Of a stretch of DNA of 64,000 bases, positions 33,341 to 63,875 are shown piece after piece; position 1 is the first letter of the stretch; every line of letters begins with the position of its first letter. Origin of the DNA: Hygrophila difformis (taxonomy: Eukaryota; Streptophyta; Magnoliopsida; Lamiales; Acanthaceae); NCBI GenBank assembly GCA_030278955.1, contig JAOANR010000011.1, positions 25,548,403 to 25,612,402 of the forward strand. The letters are read 5' to 3'. Under the pieces are notes generated by a model. It searched no databases, had not been told where the DNA came from, and worked only from the letters and a program-made list of their open reading frames with translations. The position numbers were made by a program, and so were the translations under genes.

Positions 33341-33483
33341 TGAAACTTTTGACAATTTCCTACATGAGTTTTTCTAAAATATCCCAAGTTAAATTTATTA
33401 AAAGAAAAAGAGTTATTATTCATGGGAAAGGGGTTTAAGGATATATTTCGCTTTTTATTACTCATGTGGGGTACTCTGATTTC

Positions 33484-33520
33484 AAACGGCGCTGTGGTCC
33501 TCCCCGGCATGAAACTTTTG
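33484..33520 (-). repeat. Relict LTR-end/primer-site junction inside LTR H
   Basis: AACGGCGCTGTGGTCCTCCCCGGC followed by ATGAAACTTTTGAC (plus strand, given in two parts) closely copies the true junction at 51144-51190, lacking eight bases of the primer site. The same relict is in the other LTR (51317-51356) and in I (54949-54990). More LTR-end-like copies follow near 33605 and 33650. Confidence 0.65.
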
Positions 33521-36039: not shown

Positions 36040-36625
36040 GCAATTCGGTCTATTGGGCAAAATGCAAAAGAGACCGAATTGAGGATGCATGAGGTATGAA
36101 GCAACACCATACCCAATTAATCATTGTAAAGTCATGAAGCATCCTCTAATTCGAATTGTCAAGCAATTCGGTCTAAACCGAATTGGATAATTCGAATTGA
36201 TGAAGTCATTCCTTCACTCAAATTTGGCTAAGGCATTTACCTCAAAGTGAGGGTAATTCGAATTGCCAATTGAATTTGGTCTAGACTGAATTGGACAATT
36301 CGAATTGGTAAGACAGAGAAAATAAACTAAGGCATGAGGGGATGGCATGCATACAATGTGGTTTCCCAAGCCAATTCGGTCTATATGGGCAATTCGGTCT
36401 AAACCGAATTGCCTAGACCGAATTGCATAGAAACCACATGAAGACAACACTTTTTGCTATGCAATTCGGTCTCATGGGCAGTTCGGTATAGACCGAATTG
36501 TCTAGATCGAATTGCATATGAATTTTTAGATAAGACATTCAACAAATATTTTTGCCATGCAATTCCATTCTCATGGGCAATTCGGTCTAGACCGAATTGT
36601 CTCAAATCGAATTGCATGTCTTTTC
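36040..36625. repeat. Palindrome cluster 1 of H (3' LTR, transcribed part)
   Basis: Six or so units built from AATTCGGTCTAGACCGAATT with flanking half-sites AATTCGGTCT (before) and GACCGAATT (after), spaced by about 8 bases. The same cluster in the other LTR is at 53876-54440. ORFs here are by-products. Confidence 0.85.
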
Positions 36626-36709
36626 TCTCATAAGAGATATTTTAACTCATAAGTGCAGGTTCGGTTTACATTGTGTGGTTCATGATGGATAAGATTTACC
36701 AAATCCTTC

Positions 36710-38510
36710 GGTTCGTGCGATCCGTCTGGTCTTTTCCTCCTCTCTTTCGGACTTCTATCCTTCCACGTTTTCGGGCTCGATTTTCCGGGTCATTCTCGGA
36801 TTACGATTCCTATCCTAAATTTATTCCGACTTAAATTGATTTCATGTTTGAAATCTTAAGTCCATCGGTTTTGGATTCGTCGGCTTCTAAATCGTCGTCT
36901 TTTGACTTCCATGCATTTTCGATTTTACGGGTTCTCGGAAACAAAACCTCTACGCTCATCGGATTAAATTCTATTTTATATCCTAAAAATTACGGGTATT
37001 ACAGTCTACCCTCCTTAAGAATCAACTTCGTCCTCGAAGTTGTGCTTTATCATCTCGCGAGTTCGGGAATTGTTTGATTGAGTGATTGTATTATTGTGAG
37101 TTGTTGTTTGTTATTATTTGACTGAAATCAGAATTGAAATTTCCGAGTTGCCTACGTACCCCGTGAAGGGATCAAGTCATCACGTAGTTCAAAATAATTT
37201 GAATTTGTTTAATTGGGATACAATGATATTCGAACAAAAATATTCGGGTCGTTACATCCTCCCCCTCTTAAGATTACAGTTATGTCCCCATAACTGTGGT
37301 TGCATATTCTTGGAATAGGATCGGGTAACGCTCCCTCATGTTTGCCTCTAACTCCCATGTTGCCGTCTCGGTTTCGTGGTTAGACCAACTTTGACCATTC
37401 TCACGGTCTTATTTCTTGTTACTCTCTCCTTGAAGTCGAGAATTTGCACCGAAATCTCCTTGTAGCTCAAGTCAATATCCAATTCAATTTCTTCCGGTTG
37501 CAATACATGGTCGGGTCGTGCACATACTTCTTCAATTGTGATACGTGGAACACATCGTGCACTCGAGCCAATTGTGGCGGTAAGGCTAGTCGGTATGCTA
37601 GATTACCGACTCTTCCTAGAATCTCATAAGGTCCTATATATCGAGGACTTAGCTTTCCCCGCTTGCCAAAGCGCATCACCCCCTTCATTGGTGATATCTT
37701 TAGCATGACCTTATCCCCAACTTGAAATTCTAGGTCTTGCCGTCTCACGTCGGCATAGCTCTTCTGTCGATCTTGTGCCGCCTTCATCTTCCCTTGAATG
37801 ATCTTAATTTGTTGAGCCGTATCCTCAACAAGTTGTGGTCCTACTGCCACGGCCTTATCATTCTCTATCCAACTTAATGGACTTCGCACTTTCGACCATA
37901 CAGTGCCTCGAATGGTGCCATGCCAATACTAGCATGGTAGCTATTGTTGTAGGAAAATTCAATTAAGGGTAAATGATTTTCCCAGCTACCCTTAAACTCT
38001 AGAACACATGCCCTTAGCATGTCCTCCAATGTTTGGATCGTTCTCTCTGTCTGTCCATCCGTCATGGGGTGGAACGCGGTACTCATCTTTATTTTTGTAC
38101 CGAGGGCTTCTTGCAGTTTTGTCCAAAAATGAGAGACAAATCTACTGTCTCTATCCGAGATGATGTCATGTGGTACTCCATGCCGGCGTACCACATTGTC
38201 GACATACGCCCTTGCCAATTGGTCCATTGACCAAGTGTCCTTCATTGGTATGAATATGGCAGCTTTCGTCAACCTATCCACGATCACCCAGATTTTATTC
38301 ATCCCTTTCGGTGACCGCGGTAACCCCGAGACGAAATCCATTGAAATGCTATCCAATTTCCAACTCGGGATTTCCAATGATTGCATTAGCCCTAAAGGTT
38401 TTTGGCGTACTGCCTTGATCTTCTGGCAGGTGAGGCATCTAGCCACAAACTCGGCTACCTCTCTTTTCATGTTCGACTACCAATAGTTCTTCTTTAAGTC
38501 CTTGTACAGC
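36710..38510 (-). mobile_element. Chromovirus fragment inserted in LTR H
   Basis: In the other LTR the flanks AAATCCTTC and ATTTCACATC are directly joined; here 1.8 kb lies between, with no target duplication and no lost bases. The insert runs (minus strand) from the integrase zinc region (LYKDLKK) through integrase, the double polypurine tract (37004-37272) and an LTR start (TGTAATACCCG at 37003) to about 294 bases into U3 (CGGATCGCACGAACC). It has no LTR ends at its borders, so it did not arrive by retrotransposition. Its two ends closely match the gap at the C/D junction (19455/19456). Confidence 0.85.
37467..38508 (-). pseudogene. Integrase in the inserted chromovirus fragment
   Basis: Zinc-region end (CLTCQKIKA), core ([59 protein letters not shown]) and GPY/F-like region (SPRYIGPYEILGRV). 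A frame change at about 37880 splits it and another near 37490 removes the chromodomain. A stop replaces W in the entry YWW. Overall close to the integrase of A. Confidence 0.88.
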
Positions 38511-39305
38511 AATTTCACATCAATGTCACTTCACAGCCACACTAATGAGTGTTTTAAGGAAAATAGGTAAAGTAGGTTACGTGGCTAGCAGATATTGGCA
38601 TGAAACAAACCTTAAAACTACAAACAAGCAATCAGAGATCAAAAACTTAAACATCTACTGAACAAATAAGAACACATGCTTAAAAATAAGAACACCTACA
38701 TTATCTAAGGCAACAATAAGCTAACAAAAGAGACTAAAACAGCAACTGAATAGCAGAGAAATAAATTCTAACAAGCCTAAGATTGTCTAAAACCTAAGAA
38801 TACTTATTTGGATCTCTAAGGTATAAGATCAAGCCAAAAACCCACTAGCATACATTTATTGAGAATGTAAGTCAACTAGGACATAATAAATGTAACCTAG
38901 TTGAAACAAACAAACATTCTAACATTTATTGCTAAGGAAAACATTAAATAAATGCCAAACACTTGAAATGAAAACCCATTTCTGGATTCTTTCTTGTATT
39001 GACACTTGAAAGCAGTAAATAACCCTAAAACCATTCATTGGCTTGAAGGTAGGGTTCATTCTAACTACAAAGCATTTAAAGTTTATGGAAATGGCTACAC
39101 TAAGGGTGGTAACAAGCTTCTATGAAAAATAAACTAAGCTCAAAAGCAATAAAACTACATTACAAGCATGAAAATAAACTAACTAACTACACTACCTACC
39201 TAACCCTTAAGGGGTGAAGAACCTTCTGCTCCTTCTTTTTGTCTCCCAGCAAAATGTCCAAGTGTGTAAGGATTAGAATTTTTTTCTTGTGTTGAGGAAG
39301 GTCAG

Positions 39306-39313
39306 CTTTTATA
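39306..39313 (-). promoter_or_regulatory. TATA box of LTR H
   Basis: The minus strand reads TATAAAAG, with CCTAGGG-type sequence upstream shared with LTR I (TATA at 58899-58907). Palindrome cluster 2 begins about 70 bases upstream. Confidence 0.6.
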
Positions 39314-39377
39314 CTTCTTCTCGAAACCCTAGGCCCATCATGCATTTCTCACGTGCTACACAGCTGCAATTTTGAAT

Positions 39378-39790
39378 GTGGTTCGGTCTCCTCAAGTAGT
39401 TCGGTTTAGACCGAATTGGTGACATGAGGTCTTTCTCCTTGATCTTGAGCATGAAATGTGGTGATTCGGTCTATGGGTAGACCGAATTGGCCTTGTCGAA
39501 TTGAAGATGGCTCCTGCTTGGCTTCCTTGCTTTGAGGTAATTTGATCTATGCAATCAATTCGGCCTAGACCGAATTGCAATAGATCGAACTCCTTCTTTT
39601 CTGTTTTGCTCAAAGTCTTCTCCTTTCCATAGTGCAATTCGGTCTAGGGGTCAATTCGGTTTAGACCGAACTGCCGCAGACCGAATTGGTTGCTCTTCTC
39701 TTCTTCAACACTTCTCTTTTTCTTCTTCTCTTCAGCAATTCGGTCTAATGAGCAATTCGGTTTAGGTCGAATTGTGTACAGACCGAATTG
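39378..39790. repeat. Palindrome cluster 2 of H (U3, upstream of TATA)
   Basis: Five units of the AATTCGGTCTAGACCGAATT type with outer half-sites, for example AATTCGGTCT, spacer, AATTCGGTTTAGACCGAACT, spacer, AGACCGAATT. It occupies the promoter-proximal U3. Element I has its own motif in the same place (58977-59265). Confidence 0.85.
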
Positions 39791-39829
39791 ATCTTCAACA
39801 CTTAACCAAAATTTCAGTTTGTGGGATTT

Positions 39830-41821
39830 TCATTCTTTTTCCCATCTTTTCATTCCTTTTTCTTTTCTTTTTCTTTTTTTCATGTTTTTGGATTTTTCTA
39901 ACACAAATGCAATTAAAATTGCATATTTTTGTGTCTTTCATTACCAGCTCAATATTTTTACAAACTTGCATCAATCTGTCGAATTCAACTGCTTTCTTAT
40001 TGAAATAAGATGGGATTTCGATCAAAATGTCCGTCTCAGACACGGAAATGGATTGGAAATAATGGACAATTTTGGCCATTATCAACATCCTCACATTTAA
40101 TATTGATCATCCCCGAGCAGTCAGAGTCAGTGCTCCTAAGAGCATGGACTCTGCATATTCAATCCATTTGCGTGGCTTCAAAAATTTCATTCTTGTTATA
40201 TTGGGATAATACAATCACAATTACAAGTATTAAACTCTATTGATTGCAGTGTTTAATGAAATGATACTTTTCACTTGGATAGGTATACAAATAAATCATT
40301 ATTGTTAATTTTTCTTGAATATATGTATAGAAAATTTCATTGGTTTTAATTCTTGAATTCAAGTATGACATGATCATTAAACAATCAAAGTAGAGCCTTA
40401 CATATAGTAGAATCGGAAATTTCACTCACTCTCAAAGTTGGCTTTTAAACAATACGCTCATAATCAAATTCAAATAAATTCTCCCATAAGCTTGCAATTA
40501 GACCAACTCGCCACCTACTCATTTCCTCAAATCGAGATCCCGATGTCTTATTTAAGGTTATAACGGGGCATACGGTTGTAACATTGGGTATGGAAGGGAA
40601 TTATTAGGCTAAAAAGTGATATGAGTCCATTCCATTATAACTTGGCATGTTTTTACTTGAAATCTATGATCATCAATATTTCTTTCTTTCTTTGTTTTTC
40701 TTTTCTATTGCATGACATTAGACTTTGCCTAATTTGATTTGTCAATTGCAATTTATTTCTGTTGAATAAATCTCAGCACTTTTTTTTTGTTGATCGGTTT
40801 ATGAGTACCGATTGATATTTTTGATGATCATAAACTATAATGCCTTGATGGAATTGATTCGTGTACACTTGGGTTTGATTTCTTGGTCTTTTTATAAGGT
40901 TAGGAATAACATAGTGGTTTCAAAGAAAAATTAGGCTTAAAGGCTCAACTTGGTTAATCCTAAAGGGAAAATATTTTTGGGTTTGAAATTCAAACGAAAG
41001 CCAAAATTTTGGGTTTTCTAAGTGCCTCGATCATGTACTCGATTTCGGGAATATGGCATGGTCTTGAATCGATCCCAATTGCAAGTTCTAGTGTCCTTTA
41101 ATCGAATTGATTTTCACACGACAAAGAAATAATGAGTAAAAATGACTCGGCTCAGATCTCACATGGACGGTTTGATCATGTCATACCTTTATTCTCAAAT
41201 TTAACCTTGAAAAATTCTTGCAAATTATTTAATCAAATTCTCAACATGAAAATTTTGTTTTTCTTCCAAATGATCATATCATTGGATTTTTATAGCTCAA
41301 AACCTCAAGAATTTATGTCATGCATATTTTTTAATTGTTTTATCCCAATTTAATAGTTTGAAAATTTCATCCTTAGCCTAAATTCAACATGTGAATTTAG
41401 GTGACAGATTTATGCTTGTTTTATGCCGGTTATTTAATTGAAAGCAGTAAAAAGACACTGTGATCATGCAAGCATGTCACAGCTTTGTTTTTGGCGCGAC
41501 AGTCACTTATTCATCTTGGACTGTCACACATCTTTTTCAAAAATATTTTGAGAATTCGGAACGAAATTCTCTTGTGGAAAGCAATAAACACTGGCTTCCA
41601 AAATACATTTCTGACAATCATAATTAACAGTTCCAAGGTTCGTTTTACAACACACGACCTTAATCACTGTACTTCACCAATACATTAATTACAGGAGATG
41701 CTATACACTTGGGTAAAGTTAGCATTAAAAAGCAGTCAAAAGATCTCCTAAATAAAGTTCCAGTTAACCCAGTCAAAAGTGAATCTCTACAGATTCAGTC
41801 CATCTTCAGCATCCTTCTCTT
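39830..41821. other. 3' non-coding region of H
   Basis: No convincing gene. It aligns with 59300-61228 of element I. Several blocks are very similar (for example CTCGATTTCGGGA and GGCATGGTCTTGAATCG near 41040-41080 against 60525-60560), above the level of neighbouring sequence. Pyrimidine runs at 39831-39891 and 40677-40705 are candidate polypurine tracts on the minus strand. A copy of the ATCAACATCCTCACATTTA motif is at 40081-40099. Confidence 0.6.
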
Positions 41822-42501
41822 CTAATCCTGAAAGAAGATCCTGCTCCAGTGGACGAAGTTGGTCAGGCTGCAGGGCACGCAGTAATCACCCTCGTCTGCT
41901 TCGCCATTCTCCAGCACTCTTGAGCAGTAAACTCTGGGTCCTTGGTTGCCAAACAGGTCAGGAGTTTCCAGGCTATCAGCCAGCCATGCAAAGACATTTG
42001 TCCCCCACATATGTCATGACTGATTTATCAGTCACTGTCATGTTTATCATCGCCACCCCTTGCTGGACCTGTTCATTGTCCACCTTGCTGAGCAGCATGT
42101 ACCCCCTGAGAAAGATTGAGGCTTTATGATTGTCCTCAATCCCTTCCTTCAGTAGTTCGCAAGCTTGACCCTCGTCCCCTGCTCCAAATGCTTGCAGAGC
42201 TGGAATAAGCTGGAGGTTGAAGTTTCCAGCTTCCTCACACTTTAGCAGGAGTTCCTCTTTCTGCTGTTCGACTCCCTGCTGCCACATCTTCACGATGGTG
42301 GTCTCCAGCTCGCACCTTTTGTAGACAATGGGGAGATCTGCCGCATCCCTGAGTTTCTTGCATGCCTCCCTGACAGTGAACACCTTTTTGATGTCGTCCT
42401 CTCCGATGCGAGAGAGGATCTCCCCCAAGAGTTCCACCGGAAGGTCCAGCAGCTCAATTCTTCCTTCTTGATCTTGATTTGGGTCTGCGGGAATGATGCC
42501 T
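41822..42501 (-). pseudogene. F-box-like protein gene carried by H (main exon, one frameshift)
   Basis: N-terminal F-box (LLDLPVELLGEILSRIGEDD, then VREACKKLRDA), then a region like the Sel1/TPR-type repeats of the plant At2g35280-like F-box proteins (EEAGNFNLQLIPALQAF, DNHKASIFLRGYMLLSKVDN), then VYCSR and a C-terminal CxxC with FVHWSR. About 220 codons in all. F-box proteins give target choice to SCF ubiquitin ligases. A one-base shift near 41985-42005 separates the CxxC end from the rest. It is in sense with gag-pol, downstream of integrase, where Athila relatives hold an env-like ORF. An apparent splice acceptor (TTTCCAG) precedes it at 42502. It is about 70 percent identical by eye to the copy in I over 130 residues. 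Confidence 0.7.
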
Positions 42502-43987
42502 CTGGAAAGAAGACATGGAGTAGTAAACAAGTCTGATACCAGTAGTCTCACTCCTTCAGCTAGTTCTAAACATAGGTCGCTGAATGAGAGAGTTGGAACT
42601 ATTTTTAGCAAATTTTTGATAAACATATTCAAGTTGGAAAATCAACATCCTCACATTTTGAGCTAAGCTCTAAATGTGAGTTAATTGGTTTTTACTTGAA
42701 TTTATTAGATAAAAAGACATGGAGTTGGATTTTTAAATCCAACTCTTATTGCAACAACATAGAGAGAGAGGTGAGAGAAGTAAGGATCTGGGACCCTTAC
42801 AAAATTTTTCTTAGACTATAAATAGTCTAAAAGGTTTTTTTTTTAATGGTTAAAAGACCAAAAGAAAGACTTTCATAGGCTATTAAGCCTACGAAAGAGA
42901 TTTGGATTTTTATCACTTAAAAAGTGATTTAAATCATGTGAAATAGGCAGCAAGATGATTAGTGATGAGGAACAAATGCACATGACCAGTTATGCAATCA
43001 CTAGCATGCAGTAATGGATCATGGAGAATAAAAATAAAATAAACATGCACATACACAAAAAAGTCATTTTTGGATTTTTAGGAGAAGTGTTGACTTGTTT
43101 ATTTAATAAAATTGGGGGTGTGAGTGGTCCCCCATTTGGATTTTGTTTTGGGAAATGGGTGTTAAAGAATGAAACAAGATGTTCCATTTGAATATTCCCC
43201 ATTTAGCCCAAAAATGAGCACACGTCAAACACTTAAAAGAAAAGAGCATTCTACCACTTTTTTTTTGTCTTTTTAGACATAAATGCCATGCCAAAAGTGT
43301 TGGAAAAATTTTGGCATGGTTTCGTCTATAATACCATGTTTCCCGTATGTGCAAACATCAACTTTCGAGTTGAGTTTGCAAATTGTGTTCAACATTTATT
43401 TACAAGATACACATAACACAGTACATGCATAAATGAAAACAACACAGACAATCCATTCATACCATGATCATGCAAAAATTAGCCAATAAATCATGCTTCA
43501 AAAACATAGATTCGGCAGTACCATCAACATGCATATCCAATCAACATTATCAAATAACCAGTAAAATAACACAGTGATTGCAAGGGAAAAACAAACCACT
43601 GTGTTTTTCCATTTTCACAGATTTCATAAAATAGACACAGACAGAACAACATATACACAGACGATCAAACAGCAACACAATATACAAAGATAGGATTTTT
43701 ATGGGTTTTGAACCCATATTTTCAAATATAGACGCATCCCTACACCACAGAAAACTTGAACCCACAACAATGACAGTTTCGAACAAAAAGCCCTAAAACC
43801 CTAGGTTCTGCCTATCCTGTTCTTTCCTATTTCCGACCACACCCAAACCATTCCGGCCACTTCCCGACCATCTCCCACTCGAAAACGATCACCATTCCCT
43901 TCTCCATTACCGATTTCGCAAAAACAATGAAAAACCAACACTGGAATCGCGAAAATAGGAGTGCGAAATCAAAAACAGAGCACTTAC
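42502..43987 (-). other. Probable intron of the H F-box gene
   Basis: Donor GG/GTAAGTG at 43988/43987 and acceptor CTTCTTTCCAG at 42502, 1486 bases, no coding character. The motif CTAAATGTGAGGATGTTGAT-like copy (42641-42681, with a hairpin) lies 140 bases before the acceptor. I has an intron at the same place with the same phase. An in-frame ATG upstream of the donor was not found in H. Confidence 0.45.
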
Positions 43988-44181
43988 CCGACACTCCCAG
44001 TAGGATTAGACGAAGAAGATGCCAGTTTTACGCACTTTGAACGGAGTTGATCAAGTAAAAGCTTTGGCTCGAGCCCTGGTTTCGCGAGGAAGACGGAGTT
44101 CGCGAGAGGGGATTCGGGGAAATATCGAAGTGTTGGAGGGTGAAAGTGAGGGAAAAGAGGGGGAAAAGGGGATATAAAGGG
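43988..44181 (-). promoter_or_regulatory. Leader and TATA-like site of the H F-box gene
   Basis: The minus strand has TTTATATCC (44172-44178) followed by a CT-rich leader and the donor at 43987. The TATA-like site reads TATAAAG on the plus strand, so direction is not certain; the pyrimidine-rich leader and the splice donor favour minus. Palindrome cluster 3 starts immediately upstream. Confidence 0.4.
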
Positions 44182-44187
44182 GTAGGG

Positions 44188-44800
44188 GAGTGGCTAATTC
44201 GGTCTATTGGAGACCGAACCATCAATTCGGTCTAGACCGAACTGATGTGATCTCCAAGTGTTTGTGAGAGATTCGGTCTCTTAGGCCAATTCGGTCTAGA
44301 CCGAATTGGCATAGAGACCGAATTGCAAGGGAAAGCAAACACACTTGCTGCAATGTGATCTTTTGAAGTCAATTCGGTCTTAGACCGAATTGGTTTAGAG
44401 GCCGAATTACAGCAAGAAGACCGAATCTGATTACTTAGGAAAATTACTGAGGGATGCTTTTGTGAGGCAATTCGGTATAGACCGAATTGCCTTATAGATC
44501 GAATTGCTCACTTGCATAAATAAAACTAAGGAAACACAAATGCGTTTTGTAGATCAATTCAATCTATTCAAAATTAATTCGGTCTAGACCGAATTGCTAT
44601 AGATCGAATTACTACTTGGCTAAATTTACACAAGGATGGACGATGTGTCTTGGGGAAGCCAATTCGGTCTCTAGGGCCAATTCGGTGTATACCGAATTAG
44701 CTTGGGGATCGAATTGGTTAAAATTTCCAAGGCATACCTCCAATGCGATCTGTTTCAAACAATTCGATTTAGACCGAATTGATTTGAGATACAAAATAGA
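44188..44800. repeat. Palindrome cluster 3 of H (upstream of the F-box gene)
   Basis: Seven or so units of AATTCGGTCTAGACCGAATT with outer half-sites, the same motif as in the LTR clusters. It starts within about 10 bases of the TATA-like site of the F-box leader. Element I has its own motif here (63257-63560). Confidence 0.85.
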
Positions 44801-45090
44801 TCGCATTCAACACTTAGAAAAATTTTGAAATTTTTCAAATTTCAAATTTTCTGAAATTATGGATTTTCTTAAAAATAAGCACACTGAAAGCACACATTAA
44901 AACAGAAGCATTACTCTATTATAAATTGCTTGCATAAATTAGGTTGGATTAACACCCTCATTTTATGGAGTTATTCCGGATTTTAAATTTCTCTAAATTC
45001 CGAAATTACTTTCCATTAAATGTAGTGTTAATCTAACCGGGAACCTGGTTTTCGAAGCATTATCTTTCTTTTTGTTGGTTCCATGAATTC

Positions 45091-45172
45091 CTGCAAGGTA
45101 AACATAAGAAAATTATTAAAATTTCTCCAAATATCAACATCCTCACATTTAGAGTCTTAGTACTCTAAATGT
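45091..45172 (-). other. Conserved hairpin motif and splice-acceptor-like site after pol of H
   Basis: The minus strand reads hairpin ACATTTAGAG-loop-CTCTAAATGT (45145-45172), then GAGGATGTTGAT, then CTTGCAG (45091-45097). Element I has the same order at 63876-63957. Copies of the motif also stand before the F-box acceptor and near the LTR. Confidence 0.5.
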
Positions 45173-45263
45173 TTAGTTGATTTTTGGATACTTATCATTC
45201 GAGACGAATAAATATGTACTAAATAAATATGTAATAAATAACAATATAGATATATATATATAT

Positions 45264-47297
45264 TTATTGAGCATAGGCCGGCTCTGATGTCGTTTGGACT
45301 TCTTTTCCGGGGTCGAGCAGCCCTAGATACTCCTTCAACCTGTGTCCATTCACCACCAGCTCTCCTTTGTCAGTTCGAATCCTGACAGCTCCACTTTCAA
45401 ACACGTGCACCACTTCGTATGGCCCTTCCCATCTGGATTTAAGCTTTCCGGGGAATAGCTTTAACCTAGAATTGAATAACAAGACATTTTGGCCAACATA
45501 GAAGTGTTTAGACTTTATACGACGATCGTGTAACTTCTGGGTCCGCTCTTTGTAAATCCTCGAGCTTTCATAAGCTTGCGCACGTATTTCCTCAATTTCA
45601 TTGAGGTCCAACTTGCGTTTACTCTGAGCAACTCGTGGGTCAAAATTAAGCGTTTTTACGGCCAAGTAAGCCTTGTGCTCTAGTTCTACAGGCAAATGAC
45701 AGGCTTTTCCAAAGATAAGCCTGTATGGGGACATCCCAATGGGAGTCTTGAATGCAGTGCGGTATGCCCATAGAGCATCATTGAGTCTACGTCACCAGTC
45801 TTTGCGGGTTATCCCCACAGTGGCTTTGAGTATGTGTTTGATTTTGCGGTTAGATACCTCGACTTGGCCACTGGTTTGGGGATGATAAGGCGTGCCGATC
45901 TTGTGGAGAATCCCACTTCTGCTCATGAGATTTGCAAAAGCTTTGTTGACAAAGTGGGTTCCTCCATCAGATATGATTACCCTAGGTACACCAAATCTAT
46001 TGAAAATGTTATTTTTCAAAAATTTGATGACTTGGTGACCATCGTTGGTTGGCAGCGCAACCGCCTCGACCCACTTGGACACATAGTCGACAACTACCAA
46101 GATGTAGGGATTCCCATCAGATGTCAGGAATGGTCCCATGAAGTCAATACCCCATGCATCGAAAATCTCAAAGACGAGAATTCCTTTTTGAGGCATTTCA
46201 TCCCTCTTGGAGATATTCCCGAATCTTTGGCATCTGTCGCAAGCCTTAACAAACGCCTTGCAATCATCGTAAATGGTAGGCCAATAGAAACCACACACGA
46301 GTACCTTGTGAGCTGTTCGAGTGGGGCCATGGTGACCTCCATATTCCGATTCATGACATTTTTTAGCAATTTGATAAGCCTCGTGCTCAGTTACACAGCG
46401 TCTAATAATCGAATCTGCACAATGCTTAAAGAGATAAGGATCTTCCCAGAAGTAGTTAACTACCTCTCGGTTGAACCTTGCTTTTTGCTTCTTACTCTGG
46501 AATGGTGGAGTTATTCCACATGCTAAAAAGTTAGCCATGTCGGAAAACCATGGACAAGCTTGATCATGAAGGTGCAAGGCAAACAGTTGCTCATCCGGAA
46601 AATTTTCATTAACGGCTATCTCATTTTTATCTTTATCTATTCGAGACAAATGGTCAGCAGCACCATTGTCTCTGCCTTTTCTATCTTTTATTATGATGTC
46701 AAATTCTTGCAACAAAAGTACCCACGTGATTAATCGAGGTTTGGCGTCTTGTTTGCTAAACAAGTATCTAAGTGCAGAGTGATCGGTGTATACTATGGTT
46801 TTCATACCAATGAGGTATTGTCTGAATTTATCAAACGCGAAAACCACAGCATACATCTCTTCCTCCGTGGTGGTGTAATTGACTTGGGCTTCAGTCAGGG
46901 CATGGCTGGCGTAATGAATTTCGCAATGCCTTCCTTCTTTATGTTGCCCAAGAACTGCACCGACGGCGAGATCACTTGCATCGCACAAGACCTCGAAAGG
47001 CATTGACCAATCGGGTGGTTGCACTATTGGAGCAGAAATCAACATCTTCTTGAGCGTGTCAAAGGCTTGAACACACGCTTCACTTATTACGAAAGAATTT
47101 TCTTTACAAAGCAAATTAGTGAGCGGCTTGGCAATTTTGGAAAAGTCTTTAATGAATCTCCGGTAAAAACCGGAATGCCCTAAGAAACTCCTAACTGCTT
47201 TTATTGAGTTTGGTAATGGAAGGTTGGATATGACTGAGACTTTGGCTCTATCGACTTCGATGCCTGCGCGCGAGATGCGGTGACCATGAAATGGCAC
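45264..47297 (-). pseudogene. RT end, RNase H and integrase of element H
   Basis: RT connection ([20 protein letters not shown]), RNase H ([33 protein letters not shown]), integrase zinc region (H and C residues in [10 protein letters not shown] and CDRCQRFG), core D-D-E ([32 protein letters not shown]) and C-terminal region ([21 protein letters not shown], split). Ends at 45264. One TGA near 45791 (after RKDW) interrupts integrase. The 5' end is out of frame with the RT at 47201-49270 because a short piece after EKCHFMV is missing. Confidence 0.92.
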
Positions 47298-49270: not shown

Positions 49271-49280
49271 ATTTTTGATT

Positions 49281-51029: not shown

Positions 51030-51157
51030 AAGCAGTTTATATCAAGATTTGACAGCACGTGCACAACCCCCAGGTTAGTAATGACTCGAGAATATATACA
51101 GAAACTATCTATGAGTAAATCAGGAGTGTAGTTCTCTTAATAAACGGCGCTGCATCC

Positions 51158-51175
51158 TCCCCGGCAACGGCGCCA
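51158..51175 (-). other. Primer binding site of element H
   Basis: The minus strand reads TGGCGCCGTTGCCGGGGA directly after the LTR end ...AAAAGTTTCA, the site typical of Athila/Tat elements. This fixes the LTR border at 51176. Confidence 0.93.
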
Positions 51176-54100: not shown

Positions 54101-54803
54101 TGCCAATTGAATTCGGTCTAGACCGAATTGGACAATTCGAATTGGTAAGACAGAGAAAATAAACTAAGGCATGAGGGGATGGCATGCATACAATGTGGTT
54201 TCCCAAGCCAATTCGGTCTATATGGGCAATTCGGTTTAGGTCGAATTGCGTATAGAAACCACATGAAGACAACACTTTTTGCTATGCAATTCGGTCTCAT
54301 GGGCAGTTCGGTATAGACCGAATTGTCTAGAGCGAATTGCATATGAATTTTTAGATAAGACATTCAACAAATATTTTTGCCATGCAATTCCATTCTCATG
54401 GGCAATTCGGTCTAGACCGAATTGTCTCAAATCGAATTGCATGTCTTTTCTCTCATAAGAGATATTTTAACTCATAAGTGCAGGTTCGGTTTACATTGTG
54501 TGGTTCATGATGGATAAGATTTACCAAATCCTTCATTTCACATCAATGTCACTTCACAGCCACACTAATGAGTGTTTTAAGGAAAATAGGTAAAGTAGGT
54601 TACGTGGCTAGCAGATATTGGCATGAAACAAACCTTAAAACTACAAACAAGCAATCAGAGATCAAAAACTTAAACATCTACTGAACAAATAAGAACACAT
54701 GCTTAAAAATAAGAACACCTACATTATCTAAGGCAACAATAAGCTAACAAAAGAGACTAAAACAGCAACTGAATAGCACGGAAATAAATTCTAACAAGCC
54801 TAA
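51176..54803 (-). repeat. 5' LTR of element H (interrupted by element I)
   Basis: Nearly identical to 33341-38782 without the 1.8-kb fragment. It includes palindrome cluster 1 again (53876-54440) and the relict primer junction at 51317-51356. At 54803 (...CAAGCCTAA) element I begins; CCTAA is the likely target duplication. The rest of the LTR, with its TATA box, is beyond the window. Confidence 0.9.
53876..54440. repeat. Palindrome cluster 1 of H, 5' LTR copy
   Basis: Same motif and order as 36040-36625, with small differences: one unit reads AATTCGGTTTAGGTCGAATT and one outer half-site pair near 54236 is lost. Confidence 0.85.
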
Positions 54804-57714
54804 TGAAACTTTTGACAATTTCGTCACACGAGTATTTTCTAAAATATCCCAGGTTAAATTTATTAAATAAAAAGAGTTATGATTCATGGGAAAGGGGTTT
54901 AAGGATATATTTCACTTTTTATTACTCATGAGGGAAAACTTTGAGTTCAAACGGCGTTATGGACCTCCCCGGCATGAAATCTTTGACAATTTCGTGCCTT
55001 GAAGATCCTTGCCATGAAACTTTTGACAAGTTCCCACTACATGAGTATTTTCTGAAAAATCATAATCCTGGTGTTCAATTTTTATTTAATGAAACCAATT
55101 TATGAAGGCGGAGTTGGGATTAGGGATATATTTATAGGTTGTCACGTTTTTAGTACTCGTGTTAAGAAACTGTGGCCCGGAAGCGCACAGTGTCAAAAAT
55201 TGCAGTAATTTATAGTAAGACCGGATCGTTCACTGGAGGATGTGCGATAGAAGCAGGGCCCACGTCGTTTTACTAGATTTTCCACTCGTATTGCTCCAAT
55301 TGGTTTGAAAAATGATTAATCATCTACTGACTGAATTTAAACTAAATTACAAAAGCGTTTAAATCTATTCTACAAAGCATATAAATTCTATTCTAGAAAA
55401 CGGGTAAAGTTATTCTAAGAATGCGATAAATACTATCTGTAAAAGCAATGAAAATTTACACTATGCTAGCTATGAAGCTGATTCACAGTGTGGACAGAAG
55501 GGACAGGAAGAAAAGAATACAAATTGGACAAGACTTAGATAAGGCATAATTAAACTTCCATTTTTATACACATATCTTCGCTTGGGATAATCCTGTCAGA
55601 TAGCTAATTCTCATGCTCTCAGTACAACGTTCCCTTTAACAGACAGGTACTTACAGCATGAGTTCACATGTTCTTAAGACCACAGATTCTAAGATACTAC
55701 AGATTTGTAACTGCCCTGGCCTGGGTATGTTACTTCATCTGTGGTGGACAAGCAACACCTGACAAATCATTTATTGAAGTGCCAGGTACTACTATCATTC
55801 TCCCATGTCACACCCAAAGATTCTAATCAAGCCCTGAACTATCCCTTAACTATCAATCCTAGTAGCAGTTACACAACTCTCAATACAACCGAGTGACCTC
55901 TAACGAAAGCATTTAAAAGAAAGCGATAAAGAAAGCATTTAAAATCCTATCACTCGGAGGTTTTGAAGGTCTGACCCTGGTAGTAAAAGACAGCTGCCCA
56001 TCAGAATGAAGGAGTATGGATCAAGAATTCCCGGCTCTCGGTGAACTACTCGTGTAGTCACTTCCTTCCGGGTGGTTATGAGATACAAACTAATGAAATG
56101 AACTAATAAATTAGTTCATTCCGGATGCACTCACTCAGGACTCAAAAATAGGCTTTGGCAAAAGAGGATAGCAGTTGAAAGAAAACTCAACCCTATCTTA
56201 GAAAATAACCAAGGCCTGGGTGTTGTTCCTCTATGATTATTTACTGCACTGTATTTGAGTCCAAGTGGACCCCATCTCGGTGTAATAAGTAATCTCGGAT
56301 TCCCAACAAACAGCAATTTCGGAAAATAATGAATCTGAAAACCATTCCCTAAACAGGTACTAGCTCTCAATTAAAACACAGATCCTTTCAGTCTAGATGA
56401 GACCTAATCGCTGACTCTGCTTCTAATTTCCCAAAATCAACCATTGACAGAAATTGAACCAGTCATAACTGAAGAATTTATCCCTTACTCGGATCCGGAT
56501 TTTATAAATGAATTTTTTTTGTTGGAAATTTAATACGCAATATCTGTTTAAATCTAGACTTCTAATGTCCACGGGAAGGATCCCAAAATATTATAGACCA
56601 CAATAGTACATAATAATATCATGCATAAGGATATATGGAAGTGTAAAATTAATTGACCCAAAATATAGAGGCGGGTCTAGACAGAGAATGAAACAAAAAT
56701 ATGAAATGGTCAGAGGACCAAAGTAATGGCAGAATAATCGGGTGGACTGCAAACATCTACTGTCCAATTTCCCAATTACTCGGATGAAGTGAATTTAGAC
56801 ATGTGAAACCCTAAAATGGCAGTGTCGCTACCAGTTGGGCCCCTACTGTCTGTGAATTCAGATAAAAACCTACATGCTTCCTTTCTGCAGTACTTATCAG
56901 CTAATGTTGACAGACATTAGCAGAGTTATACTACAGATTGGAATTTGGGCTTGGAAATTAAGATAAGGAAAATAAAACTGTATCTGGATAGGAGTCAGCT
57001 GAGCAGCTATTATAATCCCGGATGGACGAACCGCCAAGGCTTCCACTGACTACCATCCAGACCATGCAAAATAAGTCTTAGTAACTAATACCCAGAATAC
57101 GAGCTAGTTATCCATGAGGGAATACCCGCCAACATTAGTCTGATGTATTCTTTACTAATTGTTACACACAATACGCAAAAAAACAAAAGAAAATAAAATA
57201 AAATAAAATAAAGAGAAGAACTTGTATGAGAGACATTGGTTTCTCATGCAAGATTATGGAATCAATCCATAATTGATGGCCTAAATAATCCCTCCTACCA
57301 TAGTTAATTACAGTCCGGATTATCTGTTTAAGGCATCATGAGTTTGTTTATAGAAAAGTGTTTTAATGACAATTGAACAAAGATCCTTTAATCATAAAAA
57401 TTAGTGATTTAACCATTGCTAATTACAATCATTAATCATTACTGACAAGAGGGTTCAATTAATTAAATGATGGGAAATGGAGAATCAAAATTTTGGCAGC
57501 ATAACGCCTCATATTGCAATTCCGGGATATTACATCTTAATCCGTGGGATTAAGATGTGAGTGTTTGCAGTATAATAGAGGTTGAGAAATCAGAATTTTT
57601 GAGACAAAATAGAAGAGAGGATTCTGTCTAAATACCATAAATTGTGTCATGAGCCTAGACCCGCGACATGGGTACCTCGATAGGTTTTCAGAAATTTTGG
57701 CAGAGTTTCACCTT

Positions 57715-58266
57715 GTGTCGCTAAGCAGGGGTTGTGTCGCGGACCGTGGGTCCGCGACAGGAGTTTAGCGACACAAGATTTTCTGAAAATTTCAAAGTAT
57801 TTGGCTCCCAATCGCTAATCTGGAACTGTGTCGCGAAGCGTGGCTCCGCGACAGGATGTTTAGCGACTGGGTTTTCAAAATATTTACAAGGCATAATTTC
57901 CTGTCTCGGAATAAAAAGTGTGTCGTAGACCGTGGGTCCGCGACAGGGGTGTTCCGCGACAGGAGCCATGCAGAGAAAAATAGCAAGAGTTTGGGTCCCT
58001 GGTCGCTAAGCAGGGTTTGTGTCGCGGACCGTGGGTCCGCGACAGGGGTGTTCCGCGACAGGAGCCATGCGGAGAAATATGGCAAGAATTTGGCTCCCTG
58101 GTCGCTAAGCAGGGTTTGTGTCGCGGACCGTGGGTCCGTGACAGGAATGCCTCGCGACCGAGGGTTTTCAACATTTGAAGACAAGTATCCCTAAACATCC
58201 ATGTCGCGGAACAGCCTCCCTGTCGCTAGACGTGGCCTCGCGACAGGAGTCGGTTAGCGACATGGA
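57715..58266. repeat. Palindrome cluster 1 of I
   Basis: Six or so units based on TGTCGCGGACC/GGTCCGCGACA with outer half-sites TGTCGCTAA and TTAGCGACA. The clearest unit (57716-57777) has fully matching inner and outer pairs. It occupies the place of cluster 1 in H but shares no motif with it. Confidence 0.85.
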
Positions 58267-58898
58267 TGGTTCAGGACACAAGTCAGTAAAAGCAAATTTG
58301 AACAGTGGCATGCAAACAACGTGATCTCACCCTATTTCGGATTAAAAAGCATTTCTAAGCTAAAAACAACCAAATAACAATGGAAATATGCAAGAACATG
58401 CTAGAACAGAAATAAACTAAACTGGAACAGTATTTAAAAATAAGCACTACCCTAATCTAAGGTTTGACCACGCACATACATAACATCATCCATAAAATAA
58501 TGATAATAAGCATAATAAGGGGAAATGGGGGTCAAATGACTCCAAAATGAAAATGAAAGCATTAAATCCATGGGGTGCTAGACCCATTTCATGATTTGGG
58601 ACACGTAATGCGAATATTTTCCCATATTATTAAATGGGTTTGTTAATACCCATCATTTGGGTATTACAAAACCCTAAAAACAAAGTTTAGATGGAAAAAC
58701 ATGGTGAAAACTGGCTACCTAGCCACTGGAACAATGGAAAACAGTAAACAAAACACTACACTGAGCTAAACTATGGACATAATTAAATAATACAAAAAAT
58801 TAAAAATTAAACTACACTACCTAAGAACTGGGCGCTGATCTTGCCTTCAAGAGGATGAACTCTAATTTTTCCAACCCTGAGCTCATGGGGATCACCTC

Positions 58899-58907
58899 AT
58901 ATTTATA
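58899..58907 (-). promoter_or_regulatory. TATA box of LTR I
   Basis: The minus strand reads TATAAATAT, with CCTAGGG-type sequence upstream as in H. Cluster 2 starts about 70 bases upstream, the same distance as in H. Confidence 0.6.
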
Positions 58908-58976
58908 GAAGTGGAACCCTAGGCCCATGGGCTTGATCTGAGGCCCACTGTGTCTCAAGACATCACACCCATCACA

Positions 58977-59265
58977 CTGTGTCGCGGAAATGGAAGTCTG
59001 TCGCGGAACATCACTACATGTGGTAAGGCTTCTCGACTGGGTCTTGGGTCTCTATTGGTGCATCTGTGTCGCTAATCAGGCCTGTGTCGCTAAACCATGG
59101 TCCGCGACTCGGGCCTAGCGCCTTAGCCTATCTGGACTGGTCTCTTCTTCATGCTGCATGCTGTGTCGCTAAACCCTCCTGTGTCGCTAAGCCCTCCTGT
59201 GTCGCTAAGCCATGGACCGCGACACAGGAGCCATGGACCGCGACACAGGAGCTTCCGCGACCGGT
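58977..59265. repeat. Palindrome cluster 2 of I (U3, upstream of TATA)
   Basis: Repeated TGTCGCTAA, TGTCGCGGA and inverted CCGCGACACA half-sites, including three direct TGTCGCTAA copies at 59163-59205 opposed by two inverted copies. Confidence 0.85.
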
Positions 59266-59299
59266 TGTTCCAGAACTGGGCTGAATGGGCCAGATGGGC

Positions 59300-61228
59300 C
59301 GAAATTGTTCTTTTTGTGGGCTTTTTCTATCTTTTCCCATCTTTTTGTATTCCTTTTTCTTTTCTTTTTTTTTTCTCATGTTTTTGGATTTTTCTTACAT
59401 AAATGTGTAATAAAATTACATATTTATGCGTTTTTCACACCAGCTCACTATTTCTACAATTATGCATAAATCAATCCAATTCAACTGCTTTCTTATTTAA
59501 TATAAGACCGGAATGCGACAAATGCCCGTTTTAGACACGGAAATGGATTGAAAATAATGGTCATTTCTGGCCATTATCAACATCCTCACATTTAATACTG
59601 ATCGTCCCCGAGCAGTCAGAGTCAATGTTCTAGAGAACACGGACTCTGCATATTCAATTCATTTTCGTGGCTTCATAAATCACATTCTTTTTGGATTGGG
59701 ATAAGACAATCAAAAACTACAAGTGTTAAATTCCCTTGATTGCAGTGTTTAATGAAATGATACTTGCTCACTACATCGGGCCTACAAATCAAACATTATT
59801 ATCAACCCTTCATGAATATCATGTTTGAAAAATGCAAGGATTAAAAATTAGAATTAAAGTATGACACGAACATATTTGCAACCGAACAGAGCCTCACATA
59901 TAAGAGAATCGGAAAGTTCACTCACTCTCAATTGGGGTTTAATAATGAACGCTCAAAATCAATTTTAATTAAATTATCCCATAAGCTTGCAATTAGACCA
60001 ACTCGCCACCGGCTTATTTCCTCAATCGAGATCATGGGGTCTTATTCAAGGGTTATAACAGGGCATACGGTTGTAATATTAGGTAAAAAATGGAAATTAT
60101 TGGGCTAAGAAATGGCAAGAATTTAGTCTATCATAACTTGGCATTTTTTTTTATTTAAAATTTATGATCATCACTATTTTTTCTTTCTTTTGCTTTTCTT
60201 TTGCATGACATTAGACTAAGTCTAATTTGCTTTGTCATTTGCAATTTATTTAGTGTTGAATTGAATTGAATATTATTCAACATTATTCTCTCTCTCTTTT
60301 TTTTTTTTGATCATCATAAATTTAATGCCTTTGATAGAATTTATCCTTGCACACTTGGGTTGAATATTTTGGTCTTTTTGTATGGCTAGGAATAATATAG
60401 AGGGCTTCAAAGAAAAATTAGGCTTAAACGCTCAAAGTGGTTAATCCTAAAGGGAAAAAACATTTTTGGGTTTGGATTTCAAACGAAGGCCAAAATTTTG
60501 GTTTTCTAAGTGCCTCGATCATATGCTCGATTTCGGGAGTATGGCATGGTCTTGAATCGGTCCCAATTGCAAGTTCTAGTTTCCTTTAATCAAAACGATT
60601 CACACATCAAAGAAATAAATGAGTAAAAGTTACTCATGGCTCAAACCTCACAAGGTTGGATTGATTCATGTCATACAATATTCTAAAATTTAATCAAAGT
60701 TTAATTCTAACAATTTATTCAATCAAAATCTCTAACATGCAGATTTATTACCCAATAAGCTGATCGCATCATTAAATTTTTATGGCTCAAAACATTAGGA
60801 ATTCATGTCATGCATGTTCTCAATTATATTATCCCAATTTAGAAGTCTGAAGATCTAATCACAAGCCTAAATTCAACATGTGAATTTAGAGCAGGTTTAT
60901 GCATACTTTTGTTGGTTATTTAATTTAAAGCAGTAAAGAGGCACTGCTGACATACGGAGTATGTCAACAGCATATTTTTGGCCTGACAGTCACTTATTCA
61001 TATCGGACTGTCAGACATCTTTTCAAAGGAAACAAATAAAAATTGGTTATGGATCTCGAAAGTTTGAGTTCCATTCAAGGAAAGCGATAAATTACATCAA
61101 TTACAAGAGATTCTTATGCAGTTAGTACGAACCTGCACACAAAAGAAGAAATCCCTCATGTGATGCTTACACTAAAACTTAAATAAGATAAAGCATACTA
61201 GGATTCATTCCTCCTCCATTCTTCTCTC
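59300..61228. other. 3' non-coding region of I
   Basis: Aligned with 39830-41821 of H. No gene found. It includes a TC-rich and poly-T run (60285-60308) and the ATCAACATCCTCACATTTA motif (59576-59594). Confidence 0.6.
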
Positions 61229-61890
61229 TCAGAACATGTACCTGCTCCAGTGGACGAAACTTGTCAAATCACAGCGTAGACACCAGCCATTATGGTCTCA
61301 GGGGTTCATGCATCCTTGTGCAGTAGACCCGGGGTGGTTGGTCTGCAAATAGGTAGGGAGTGTCCGGATCGTCCGCCATCCATGAGAGAGTGTTGGTGGA
61401 TGTGTAGTTCAGGACCGATCTATCGGTCACCATTCTCTCTATCATTGTGATCCCCTAATTGACCTGGCCTTCATCCAGCTTGCTCATAAGCATCAGTCCA
61501 CGGGTGAAGATTGACGCTTTGTGATTGTCCTCGATGCCTGGCCGCAGCAGTTCGCAGGCTTGCTCTTCATCCCCTTCTGCGAATGCTAGGAGTGCGGGAA
61601 CGATTTGGAGATTAAAGTTTCCAGCCTCCATGCATGTGTGCAGGAATCTCTCCTTCTGCCATTGAATCCTCCCTTGCCACTGCCTCACCTTAGAAGTGTC
61701 CAACTCGCATCGCTTGTACACGATGGCGAGATTTCCTGCGTCCCTGAGCTTTTTGCATGTCTCTTGTGCAGTGAACACTTCCCTGATTTCATCCTCTCCT
61801 ATTCGGGAGAGGATTTCACCTAGGAGCTCCTCCGGTAGGTCCAGCAGCTGTGTTCCTTCGGGCACTGGGTCCGGGATTTGAAGATTGCCC
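61229..61890 (-). pseudogene. F-box-like protein gene carried by I (main exon)
   Basis: F-box LLDLPEELLGEILSRIGEDE with CKKLRDAGNLAIVYKRCEL, then EAGNFNLQIVPALLAFAEGD and DNHKASIFTRGLMLMSKLDE. A TAG at 61455-61457 follows GQVN; beyond it the frame continues (MVTDRSV, PRVYCTRM), then after one frame change gives WCLRCDLTSFVHWSRYMF-stop. It therefore keeps the whole domain order of the H copy, including the CxxC end, with different damage. Acceptor CTTTTCAG at 61891. The role would be SCF target choice if any intact relative is expressed. Confidence 0.7.
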
Positions 61891-63030
61891 CTGAAAAGAT
61901 AAGAAGTGATGAATCCAATTTTATAATTTCCTCAGAAATCATTCAAGTTTAGAAACCAACATCCTCACATTTAGAGTTTTGCTCTAAATGTGAGATTATT
62001 AAGTTTCTGACTTGAATTTCAATTTAAAGCATAGGTAAAATAAATGTTTATGAAGAGATAGGGGTCATTGGGCCCCTATATATTTTTAATGGGCCATCGG
62101 GCCCAAAAGTTCGATTTTCCAATATTATTAGTCAAGTCTGAGACACTTGTTGAAAATGGAATGAAATGGATGGATGGGGGCGAAATGCTCGAATATTGGA
62201 ATATGCAGTGGAGGCGTGGCGCAATGGATTTGCTATTTCTGGGCTGCCTAGACTGTCTTGGACAGTTGAAGCATTCCCAAGAATTTTGCAAATACTATTT
62301 TTCATTTTTAAAGAGTTGACTCGTTTTATTAAGAAAAGTGGGATGTGAGTGGTCCCATTTGGATTTTTGAGAAGGATAGCAGTTGGGTGACGAAAATACT
62401 GCTATTTACTCACACTATAGTTTCATTGGGAACAAAAAGAACACAAGTCAATTATTGCACCTATCAACTATTTTTGTCTTTTTCCAAAAGGTCACTTTTA
62501 TTAAAAAGTGGAAGTCTCCCATTGGGTGTTTGTACTATGTTTCCATAAACAAACAAACATTTATTCCCACAAGATTGAAACATGTGGAAACAAATATGCC
62601 AAAAAGATCTTCCACTTTAATGCTCCCAGATAACACTGCAGATGCATCCATTATAGGATCAAAAACAAAGTTGAAAAGGAGCATCAAGCATTTAACCCTA
62701 CTTTTTCAAAAACTCAAGATAGGAAAAACCAATAACATCATGGTGTTCGAAACAACACCCTAACATTCATCAGTTCTTCTTTTCCAGTTTCAAACTTCAA
62801 ACTTAAAATTTTAACCCTTAACAGTCTTTTTAAAACAGTTTCTCAAACAGGTTTTTAAGGGTTTCAAAGAGGTTTTAAAGCAATCACTCAAAACCGGGAG
62901 CAACCAAAGATCAAAACCGAAAAAAATGAAAGGCACACAAGCCACATTATGTTCTTCTCAAAACCAAGTAAAGGCAAAAGAACAAGGAAAATGGAAAGAG
63001 CCATGAACAGGGGGGAAGATGGGGTTCTAC
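61891..63030 (-). other. Probable intron of the I F-box gene
   Basis: Donor CAGG/GTAGAA at 63031/63030 and acceptor CTTTTCAG at 61891, 1140 bases. Joining leaves the frame open with the same splice phase as inferred in H. The hairpin motif is at 61956-61993. The donor is weaker than that of H. The interior shows no gene; it aligns only in part with the H intron. Confidence 0.45.
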
Positions 63031-63245
63031 CCTGCCCTCCTTTGTTCAGGTCGGGGTAAGGGTCCCAAGTTTGGAAGGATCCTATAAAATCTGTCCATAG
63101 TTTCCCCTTGAAAACGGATGGTTGAGTGCGAAGAACACGGTGGTGTTCGTTCGGGAGAGAGGAGAGTGAACAGGAGAAGTTGGAGATATGAGTGAAAAAT
63201 GAAGAGAGTGCAGGGAAAGGAGGTGAGGAACGGGGGGTATAAATA
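63031..63245 (-). CDS. First coding exon, leader and TATA-like site of the I F-box gene
   Basis: ATG at 63098 opens MDRFYRILPNLGPLPRPEQR and reaches the donor in the phase needed by the main exon. Upstream is a CT-rich leader and TATA-like TATTTATA (minus; 63238-63245). The site reads TATAAATA on the plus strand, so direction is not certain. Cluster 3 begins 12 bases further upstream. Confidence 0.4.
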
Positions 63246-63256
63246 CTGAAAAAGCT

Positions 63257-63560
63257 GGTCGCGGAACCCCAGACCGTGTCGCGGAACAAGGTTCCTCGAC
63301 CAGGGTCTAGCGACATTAGACATGTCGCGGAACTGGAGTCCGATCGTGAGGCCATGCCTCGCGACAGGGGTATAGCGACCGACTTTAGTAAGGAAATAAA
63401 GTCAACGGGGGAAACGTGTCGCGGAATAGGAGACCGGTCGCGAGGCTATGCCCCGCGACAGGGGTTCCGCGACAGCGTCAGAAAGAGTTAGAGATAAATG
63501 TGATTGTGTCGCGGGACCAGGCCTGGTCGCAGAGCATTGCCTCACGACACAGTGGTTGCT
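63257..63560. repeat. Palindrome cluster 3 of I (upstream of the F-box gene)
   Basis: Repeated TGTCGCGGA with inverted CCTCGCGACA and TTCCGCGACA half-sites, the same motif family as the LTR clusters of I and unlike the motif of H at the matching place (44188-44800). Confidence 0.85.
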
Positions 63561-63875
63561 TCGCGATACAAAATTTTGAATTTTCAAATTTTTCGTGGTC
63601 TGGGCCTGAGCGTGGTATTGGGCCTGAATCCACTTTATTTGATTTGGACCTGAATAAATTCAGTCCAAATAAATTCAAAATACTGGGCTGAAATTAAAGA
63701 AGGATCCACTTGCACAAATTAGGTTGGGTTAATTCCATTTGTTTGCAAAAATTATTCCAGATTTAAATTGCTTCAAATTCCGAAAATATTTTCTTAAATT
63801 CATGGAATTAATCCAACCAAGAACCTGGTTTTCCGTGTTACTTTTCTGCTCCTCTTTTTGATTGTTCCGAACTTT

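Follow-up and report, generated by a model that had tools for sequence, protein, structure and literature searches.

In a window of 64,000 nucleotides from the Hygrophila difformis genome (the whole stretch analysed: contig JAOANR010000011.1, positions 25,548,403 to 25,612,402 of the forward strand), two retroelements, here called H and I, each carry clusters of one palindromic motif at three places: in the transcribed part of the long terminal repeat (LTR; cluster c1), in U3 (c2) and upstream of a separate F-box-like gene (c3). Judged by their sequence, H and I are related Ty3/gypsy retrotransposons, probably of the Athila type, each with an added F-box/TPR-like gene. The clusters are a real, non-random feature beside likely promoters, and those of H and I follow a common grammar written in different letters. 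With a probability of roughly 0.6, we propose that they are promoter-proximal arrays of CpG-containing palindromic sites by which one DNA-binding factor would co-control the LTR and the F-box-like gene of its element.

All six clusters were recovered at the places given by a first-pass annotation of the window (half-site extents in Table 1), and a fourth H cluster, the c1 copy in the other LTR of this element, had been missed there. With up to three mismatches allowed, AATTCGGTCTAGACCGAATT matched 20 times in the window, 15 times in the three H clusters and 5 times in the c1 copy, against a mean of 0.00 in 100 shuffles, and TGTCGCGGACC with at most one mismatch matched 18 times, always inside I (0.30 expected). 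Half-sites with up to three mismatches were also counted by cluster, with 200 simulations for each. For c1, c2 and c3 in that order, H gave 24, 17 and 28 matches to its own half-site (simulated means 1.4–2.0) and I gave 18, 11 and 11 to its own (simulated means 1.0–1.9), and no simulation reached any of these counts. With the motifs exchanged, I held 0, 1 and 2 matches to the H half-site, which is not above chance, and H held 0, 1 and 0 to the I half-site. These counts support one motif per element at three places, as the first-pass annotation had described. In a motif-free check, all H clusters had AATTCG or ACCGAA as their commonest 6-mer, and all I clusters had GCGACA or CGCGAC. A cruder scan for 8-mers on both strands picked out I c1 along with the H clusters (3–6 vs at most 2 in 10 simulated 64-kb windows), missed I c2 and I c3, and also picked out two further places, where the count for TAGATCTA was 3.

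The mean half-site identity was 0.75–0.80 across and 0.73–0.81 inside the clusters of H, 0.70–0.76 across and 0.71–0.76 inside those of I, and 0.21–0.25 between H and I at matching places (15 of 18 H and 12 of 13 I units covered), the high within-element values being partly built in because half-sites were chosen by their likeness to the consensus. With the half-sites masked, no similarity among the clusters of one element was found by BLAST at E < 1. The description of one motif throughout each element holds for all clusters, with less uniformity than it implies: perfect palindromes in H are confined to c1 (plus its LTR copy) and c3, those of c2 having 1–3 mismatches, and the I clusters all share TGTCGC[G/T][G/A], with perfect 11-mers only in c1, which includes a 99-bp tandem array.

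A unit consists of two 11-bp half-sites separated by a gap, a centre, and two inverted half-sites again separated by a gap (> > < <). All four half-sites of this design, already described in the first-pass annotation, were identified in 14 of the 18 units of H and in 11 of the 13 of I. Within these units, the centre gap is nearly always 0 bp in H (13/14) and always 3 bp in I (11/11). The left gap has a median of 7 in H and 8 in I, the right gap one of 4 and 5, and the left gap is the larger one in 13/14 and 9/11 units, respectively. Unit centres are spaced by 82–118 bp in H and by 65–102 bp in I. The unit at 54209–54248, in c1 of the H 5' LTR, has lost an outer half-site, and its palindrome is that of a c2 unit.

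The H motif holds 1.1–2.1 bits per position across 11 bp and 0.1–0.6 bits outside, and its CpG is kept in nearly all half-sites (C in 64/69, G in 67/69); for I, the half-sites in the information table were selected by their TGTCGC core, the conservation of which is partly built in. CpG dinucleotides were counted under a strict half-site mask, applied to the background too. The H clusters hold 61 CpGs inside half-sites and 4 elsewhere, where 33.8 are expected (observed/expected ratio, o/e, 0.12), and the I clusters 92 inside and 8 elsewhere (29.2 expected, o/e 0.27), compared to a background o/e of 0.41–0.60 in the outer LTR, gag-pol, F-box-upstream stretches and the linker that follows the F-box-like open reading frame (ORF). 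That motif CpGs are kept on such a CpG-poor background points to a function as DNA sites, and deamination is a plausible cause of the loss around them. The arrays of two other elements in the window, with o/e outside the motif of 0.95 and 0.43, are without such confinement of CpG.

Read in the sense of the element, the layout runs from the 5' LTR and gag-pol through c3, a TATA-like box, the F-box-like ORF, the linker and the polypurine tract to c2, a second TATA-like box and c1. Each of the four promoter blocks has one TATA-like box; the nearest half-site of c2 lies 66 bp (H) or 73 bp (I) from the LTR box and that of c3 17 bp (H) or 14 bp (I) from the box of the F-box-like gene. The strict pattern TATA[AT]A[AT] matched once per LTR block and zero times in the F-box blocks. 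We infer promoters at both c2 and c3.

Table 1 Features of elements H and I in the window (window coordinates; LTR, long terminal repeat; ORF, open reading frame; PBS, primer binding site).
Feature	Position	Strand	Remark
H	33341 to beyond 54803	-	Ty3/gypsy element
H 3' LTR	33341..39832	-	~4.7 kb excluding foreign Ty3 pol fragment 36710-38511
H cluster c1	36041..36614	.	transcribed part of LTR
H LTR TATA-like box TATAAAA	39307..39313	-	strict pattern
H cluster c2	39379..39790	.	U3
H F-box/TPR_27-like ORF piece	41976..42506	-	more stops downstream
H F-box-gene TATA-like box TTTATAT	44172..44178	-	looser pattern
H cluster c3	44195..44808	.	upstream of F-box-like gene
H gag-pol region	45264..51041	-	gag, reverse transcriptase, RNase H, integrase
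H 5' LTR (part)	51176..54803	-	split by element I; Athila/Tat-type PBS adjoins at 51175
H c1 copy in 5' LTR	53878..54439	.	fourth cluster
I 3' LTR	54804..59329	-	~4.5 kb; right edge by eye
I cluster c1	57716..58262	.	transcribed part of LTR
I LTR TATA-like box TATAAAT	58901..58907	-	strict pattern
I cluster c2	58980..59262	.	U3
I F-box/TPR_27-like ORF piece	61455..61904	-	stop earlier than in H
I F-box-gene TATA-like box TTTATAC	63237..63243	-	looser pattern
I cluster c3	63257..63568	.	upstream of F-box-like gene

Along H, the Pfam domains RVT_1, RNase H, H2C2 and rve follow one another in the reverse transcriptase, RNase H, integrase order of Ty3/gypsy elements, in addition to a gag ORF. The sequence TGGCGCCGTTGCCGGGGA adjoining the H 5' LTR, which we take to be the Athila/Tat primer binding site, is common to Athila and Tat and so does not separate the two. 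Among the 120 matches listed for pol, all those with an organism name were from plants. The H LTRs differ at 49 of 3355 aligned sites (33341–36709 vs 51176–54534); the right edge of the 3' LTR was set by eye from the polypurine tract, the other H LTR being interrupted by I. The latter is nested in the H 5' LTR at 54803/54804, with a putative target duplication (CCTAA) on one side only, and runs past the end of the window, beyond which its gag-pol lies. The foreign insert of ~1.8 kb in the H 3' LTR is a Ty3 integrase-region fragment with no visible LTRs and, by eye, no clear target duplication.

The F-box-like ORFs are found in sense orientation between pol and the 3' LTR in both elements. Pfam placed TPR_27 (both elements) and F-box (H; 20.1 bits, cut-off 20.5) just under the cut-off, and F-box was not listed for I. 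The ratio of nonsynonymous to synonymous substitution rates between H and I was 0.107 (bootstrap 0–0.24, 118 codons, with synonymous sites near saturation at a proportion of synonymous differences, pS, of 0.68), which indicates that the protein is under purifying selection. No relatives were found at E ≤ 0.001 using the H query alone, nor at E ≤ 0.1 using a two-row H/I alignment as query; a PDB match at E 0.75 was weak and unrelated, and an AlphaFold2 model (pLDDT 40.9) was too poor for a fold search.

We suggest that in each element the palindromic, CpG-containing sites of the arrays are bound by a single DNA-binding factor with sequence specificity. The arrays would adjoin the LTR promoter and the separate promoter of the F-box-like gene, with a third array in the transcribed LTR, and with arrays at both promoters the same factor would switch both, presumably activating them. 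A dimer would sit on the inner palindrome, whose two 11-bp half-sites have a fixed spacing, and a second pair would bind cooperatively at the flanking half-sites. As the motifs differ but the grammar is the same, H and I would be read by related factors, or by one whose specificity has changed. The methylation state of the motif CpGs may also be relevant. F-box proteins can target silencing factors. A circuit owned by the element is conceivable, though improbable, in which a dedicated factor, either encoded by the element or tuned to it, would read the CpG palindromes in a methylation-dependent manner and switch on the genomic RNA together with an F-box protein whose role would be to remove a component of host silencing. 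With factor and sites changing together, each subfamily would control only itself.

The sequence surrounding the motifs had been said to align between H and I. It does so in the outer LTR and the linker, at 57–94% identity per 100 columns (leaving out one window that had 18 aligned columns), but the cluster-bearing blocks are near noise. Two such blocks, each of ~2 kb and containing promoters and clusters, were compared (H 35850–39830 minus the foreign insert vs I 57175–59330, and H 42700–44900 vs I 62000–63700). Identity was 0.432 in the c1 part (shuffled 0.401–0.430), 0.458 in the U3-R part (0.413–0.466) and 0.473 in the F-box-upstream block (0.384–0.448), where a trace of likeness appears to persist; the linker, as a positive control, gave 0.788 (0.416–0.460). 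BLAST of the masked sequences gave, at the c2 place, a 14-bp match between the TATA-like box and the cluster (E 0.027) and, at the c3 place, 23 A/T-rich bp lying past the cluster (E 0.003) along with a second match (E 0.14); at non-matching places, H c3 matched I c1 three times at E 0.48. Since the synonymous sites of the F-box-like gene are near saturation, loss of alignment is expected in unconstrained DNA, and what is left to explain is the single motif per element together with the common grammar.

Several observations weigh against the proposed promoter arrays. The I motif is loose beyond TGTCGC, and the unit counts are not independent because the units of an element are in part copies of one another. 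Outside its half-sites, I c3 is not depleted of CpG (6 vs 7.2 expected, o/e 0.84), the remaining LTR promoter blocks are CpG-poor as well (H 4 vs 31.1, o/e 0.13; I 11 vs 35.5, o/e 0.31), and TpG+CpA is not clearly raised in these regions (1.18–1.38 vs 1.05–1.30 elsewhere). Two of the four TATA-like boxes rely on the looser pattern, picked post hoc after reading the sequence, and c1 has no TATA-like box nearby in either element. The first-pass annotation further held that all clusters of an element had turned over together; one motif per element at three places agrees with this, but the sample is two elements, H and I, only.

It is unlikely that H and I instead captured different promoter modules tuned to different host factors, in the manner of the Tnt1 U3 variants. 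Such capture is also compatible with DNA sites, and its odds overlap with those of the promoter arrays read by one factor. Whole blocks, rather than motifs alone, align poorly, and Tnt1-family elements, alike elsewhere, differ chiefly in the regulatory U3 (PMC1838419, excerpt); a second, internal promoter changing alongside is not mentioned in that excerpt. Against capture, two separate blocks would have to switch to the same motif, the unit grammar is common to H and I, and a faint likeness is retained at matching places (the F-box-upstream identity exceeding its shuffled maximum, and the matches at E 0.027 and E 0.003), tempered by the three matches of H c3 to I c1.

By analogy with the VANC proteins of VANDAL transposons, a factor encoded by the element itself is possible. 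That such a protein reads the motif, lifts silencing and co-evolves with the motif is a special form of the one-factor explanation, overlapping it in odds, and we regard it as improbable. The single motif at all three places of an element is in line with it, as are the purifying selection on the F-box-like gene with the same motif by its TATA-like box and the precedent of motif change between families. In VANDALs, too, non-coding arrays of short motifs differ between related families and are proposed to co-evolve with a trans factor (PMC5735166, excerpt). VANDALs are, however, DNA transposons, and binding has been shown for them (same excerpt). The VANC21 sites, as far as the excerpt describes them, stand in one orientation, an arrangement not found in the palindromic > > < < units of H and I. 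Moreover, Pfam on 7 of the 60 ORFs listed for the window returned gag-pol domains and the sub-cut-off TPR_27 and F-box, with no non-retroviral DNA-binding domain and no candidate for a VANC-like protein among the seven, the gag-pol of I being beyond the window.

The units could also be kept since transcripts fold there, with a role in packaging, stability or host small-RNA production, which had been named as the alternative to DNA sites and which we consider a poor bet. All 12 of the 31 units that were folded did so better than shuffles (z −2.4 to −9.6), with 0/200 shuffles as good in 10 units and 1 and 6 in the other two, although strong folding is expected of any inverted repeat. Covariation between arms was assessed for the inner arms of 15/18 H and 12/13 I units and the outer arms of 14 and 11, leaving out units without clear half-sites and with some outer half-sites set by eye. 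Watson-Crick covariation is weak in the inner arms of I (p 0.016; 0.024 with G-U pairs) and in the outer arms of H (p 0.028; 0.18 with G-U), and absent from the inner arms of H (p 0.93) and the outer arms of I (p 0.56). Flanks peculiar to one unit are complementary in some cases, H c1d, I c1a and I c1f among them, but the tests were inconsistent, with p 0.075 and 0.034 in one test and 0.69 in the other for H, and 0.20 and 0.25 in one and 0.013 in the other for I. Sirevirus palindromes are said to be hotspots of small-RNA mapping (PMC5311732, excerpt). With covariation and flank tests mixed, RNA pairing was rejected as a conserved property, and as arm pairing is not consistently kept, a hairpin is not needed; nor does RNA pairing predict the proximity to TATA-like boxes or the retention of CpG. 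The weak or absent covariation and the kept CpGs favour DNA sites, with some small chance left for a role in RNA.

Least probable is that palindromes were homogenised by template switching or gene conversion without any factor, the identity at three places then needing no selection: the palindrome at 54227–54248 of the H 5' LTR, with 4 differences from its 3' LTR partner and 22/22 bp equal to the c2 palindrome at 39753–39774, resembles a transfer between clusters (a single case) and I c1 has its tandem array, but the lack of similarity outside half-sites would confine copying to short sites, and the placement by TATA-like boxes, the conserved gaps and the motif-only retention of CpG would be left unexplained.

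When compared to published systems, the RM boxes of Sireviruses (Ty1/copia) are, by analogy, a closer parallel than VANC, and one that the first-pass annotation had not named. These are repeated palindromes in 8–32 copies, different in most elements, located before the TATA box in the LTR and, where an element has ENV, mostly ahead of that gene, with a CGG-CCG core in 12 of 13 motifs (PMC2829016, excerpt); all 13 consensus motifs tabulated there contain CpG. H and I likewise have many copies of one palindrome per element, arrayed in the LTR upstream of a TATA-like box and upstream of the extra gene. The H core CGGTCTAGACCG is near those of Osr10 (CGGTCTGACCG) and Osr8 (CGGTCAGACCG), and the I c1 core CGGACC-GTG-GGTCCG is near that of HOPIE (CGGACCGTCCG). 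The CGG-CCG core itself is present in H, and at most 30/50 I half-sites can hold it. H and I differ from Sireviruses in being Ty3/gypsy elements with an F-box-like extra gene instead of ENV, in the nested double pairs of their units, in the further cluster in the transcribed LTR, and in that c2 starts ~40 bp inside the LTR edge (by eye), compared to 200–400 bp. The motif has been termed Sirevirus-specific because classic copia elements lack it, gypsy elements not being covered in the excerpt (PMC2829016). H has the gypsy domain order and no Ty1/copia pol and is thus not a Sirevirus, so that the likeness is one of working in the same way and not of membership.

Other elements, too, are known to have an added ORF in the interval from pol to the 3' LTR, and for maize Grande an own promoter is reported (PMC11963269, PMC7264820, excerpts). 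The gene of H and I differs in being sense-oriented and F-box-like, a term with 0 occurrences in the main texts of these two papers. Among the literature matches listed, seen as excerpts, none described such boxes in Athila elements, nor an F-box gene there. Exact motif scans of viral contigs gave 0 and 0 matches.

The linker (39840–41541 in H, 59336–61027 in I) is 79% identical with few gaps and far more alike than the synonymous sites of the F-box-like gene, as would fit constrained RNA or DNA, or recent exchange. A hidden gene was rejected, as no open frame spans the candidate windows; in a codon-phase test, 2 of at most 21 windows were uneven (40515–40665 and 40815–40965; p 0.005 and 0.018), with mismatches lowest in one phase common to both; in the F-box control, 4 windows were uneven. 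The linker is apparently non-coding. The repeat CTCTAAATGTGAGGATGTTGA (element sense, 0–3 mismatches) occurs at three matching places per element, partly inside a hairpin (40082, 42642 and 45134 in H; 59577, 61956 and 63919 in I), two of the three being upstream of what looks, by eye, like a 3' splice site. By eye, 3' splice-site-like sequence lies at 45070–45110 in H and 63870–63900 in I, soon after the end of pol, as for a spliced downstream gene. Rfam gave no gathering-level match over 33000–64000.

Further arrays are present elsewhere in the window. A large inverted arm pair at 8200–11830, 99.7% identical over 1176 bp, carries its own GCGCCA/TGGCGC array with a period of ~85 bp beside an ORF that reads like gag. 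A direct array of CTTGGGGAATCGAACCCGCAAG, a unit self-complementary at 16/22 positions and containing CpG, is found in two long direct-repeat copies (4860–5210 and 13315–13656), apparently of another Ty3 element.

The layout known from Sireviruses, with boxes at the LTR promoter and at an extra gene, would here be carried into Ty3/gypsy, by convergence or by a common requirement. In a CpG-poor promoter where CpG survives mostly inside the palindromes, the CpG in the palindrome may be what is kept. Finally, with one grammar written in wholly different letters, these related elements would allow a direct test of whether specificity has changed in the control of retroelements.

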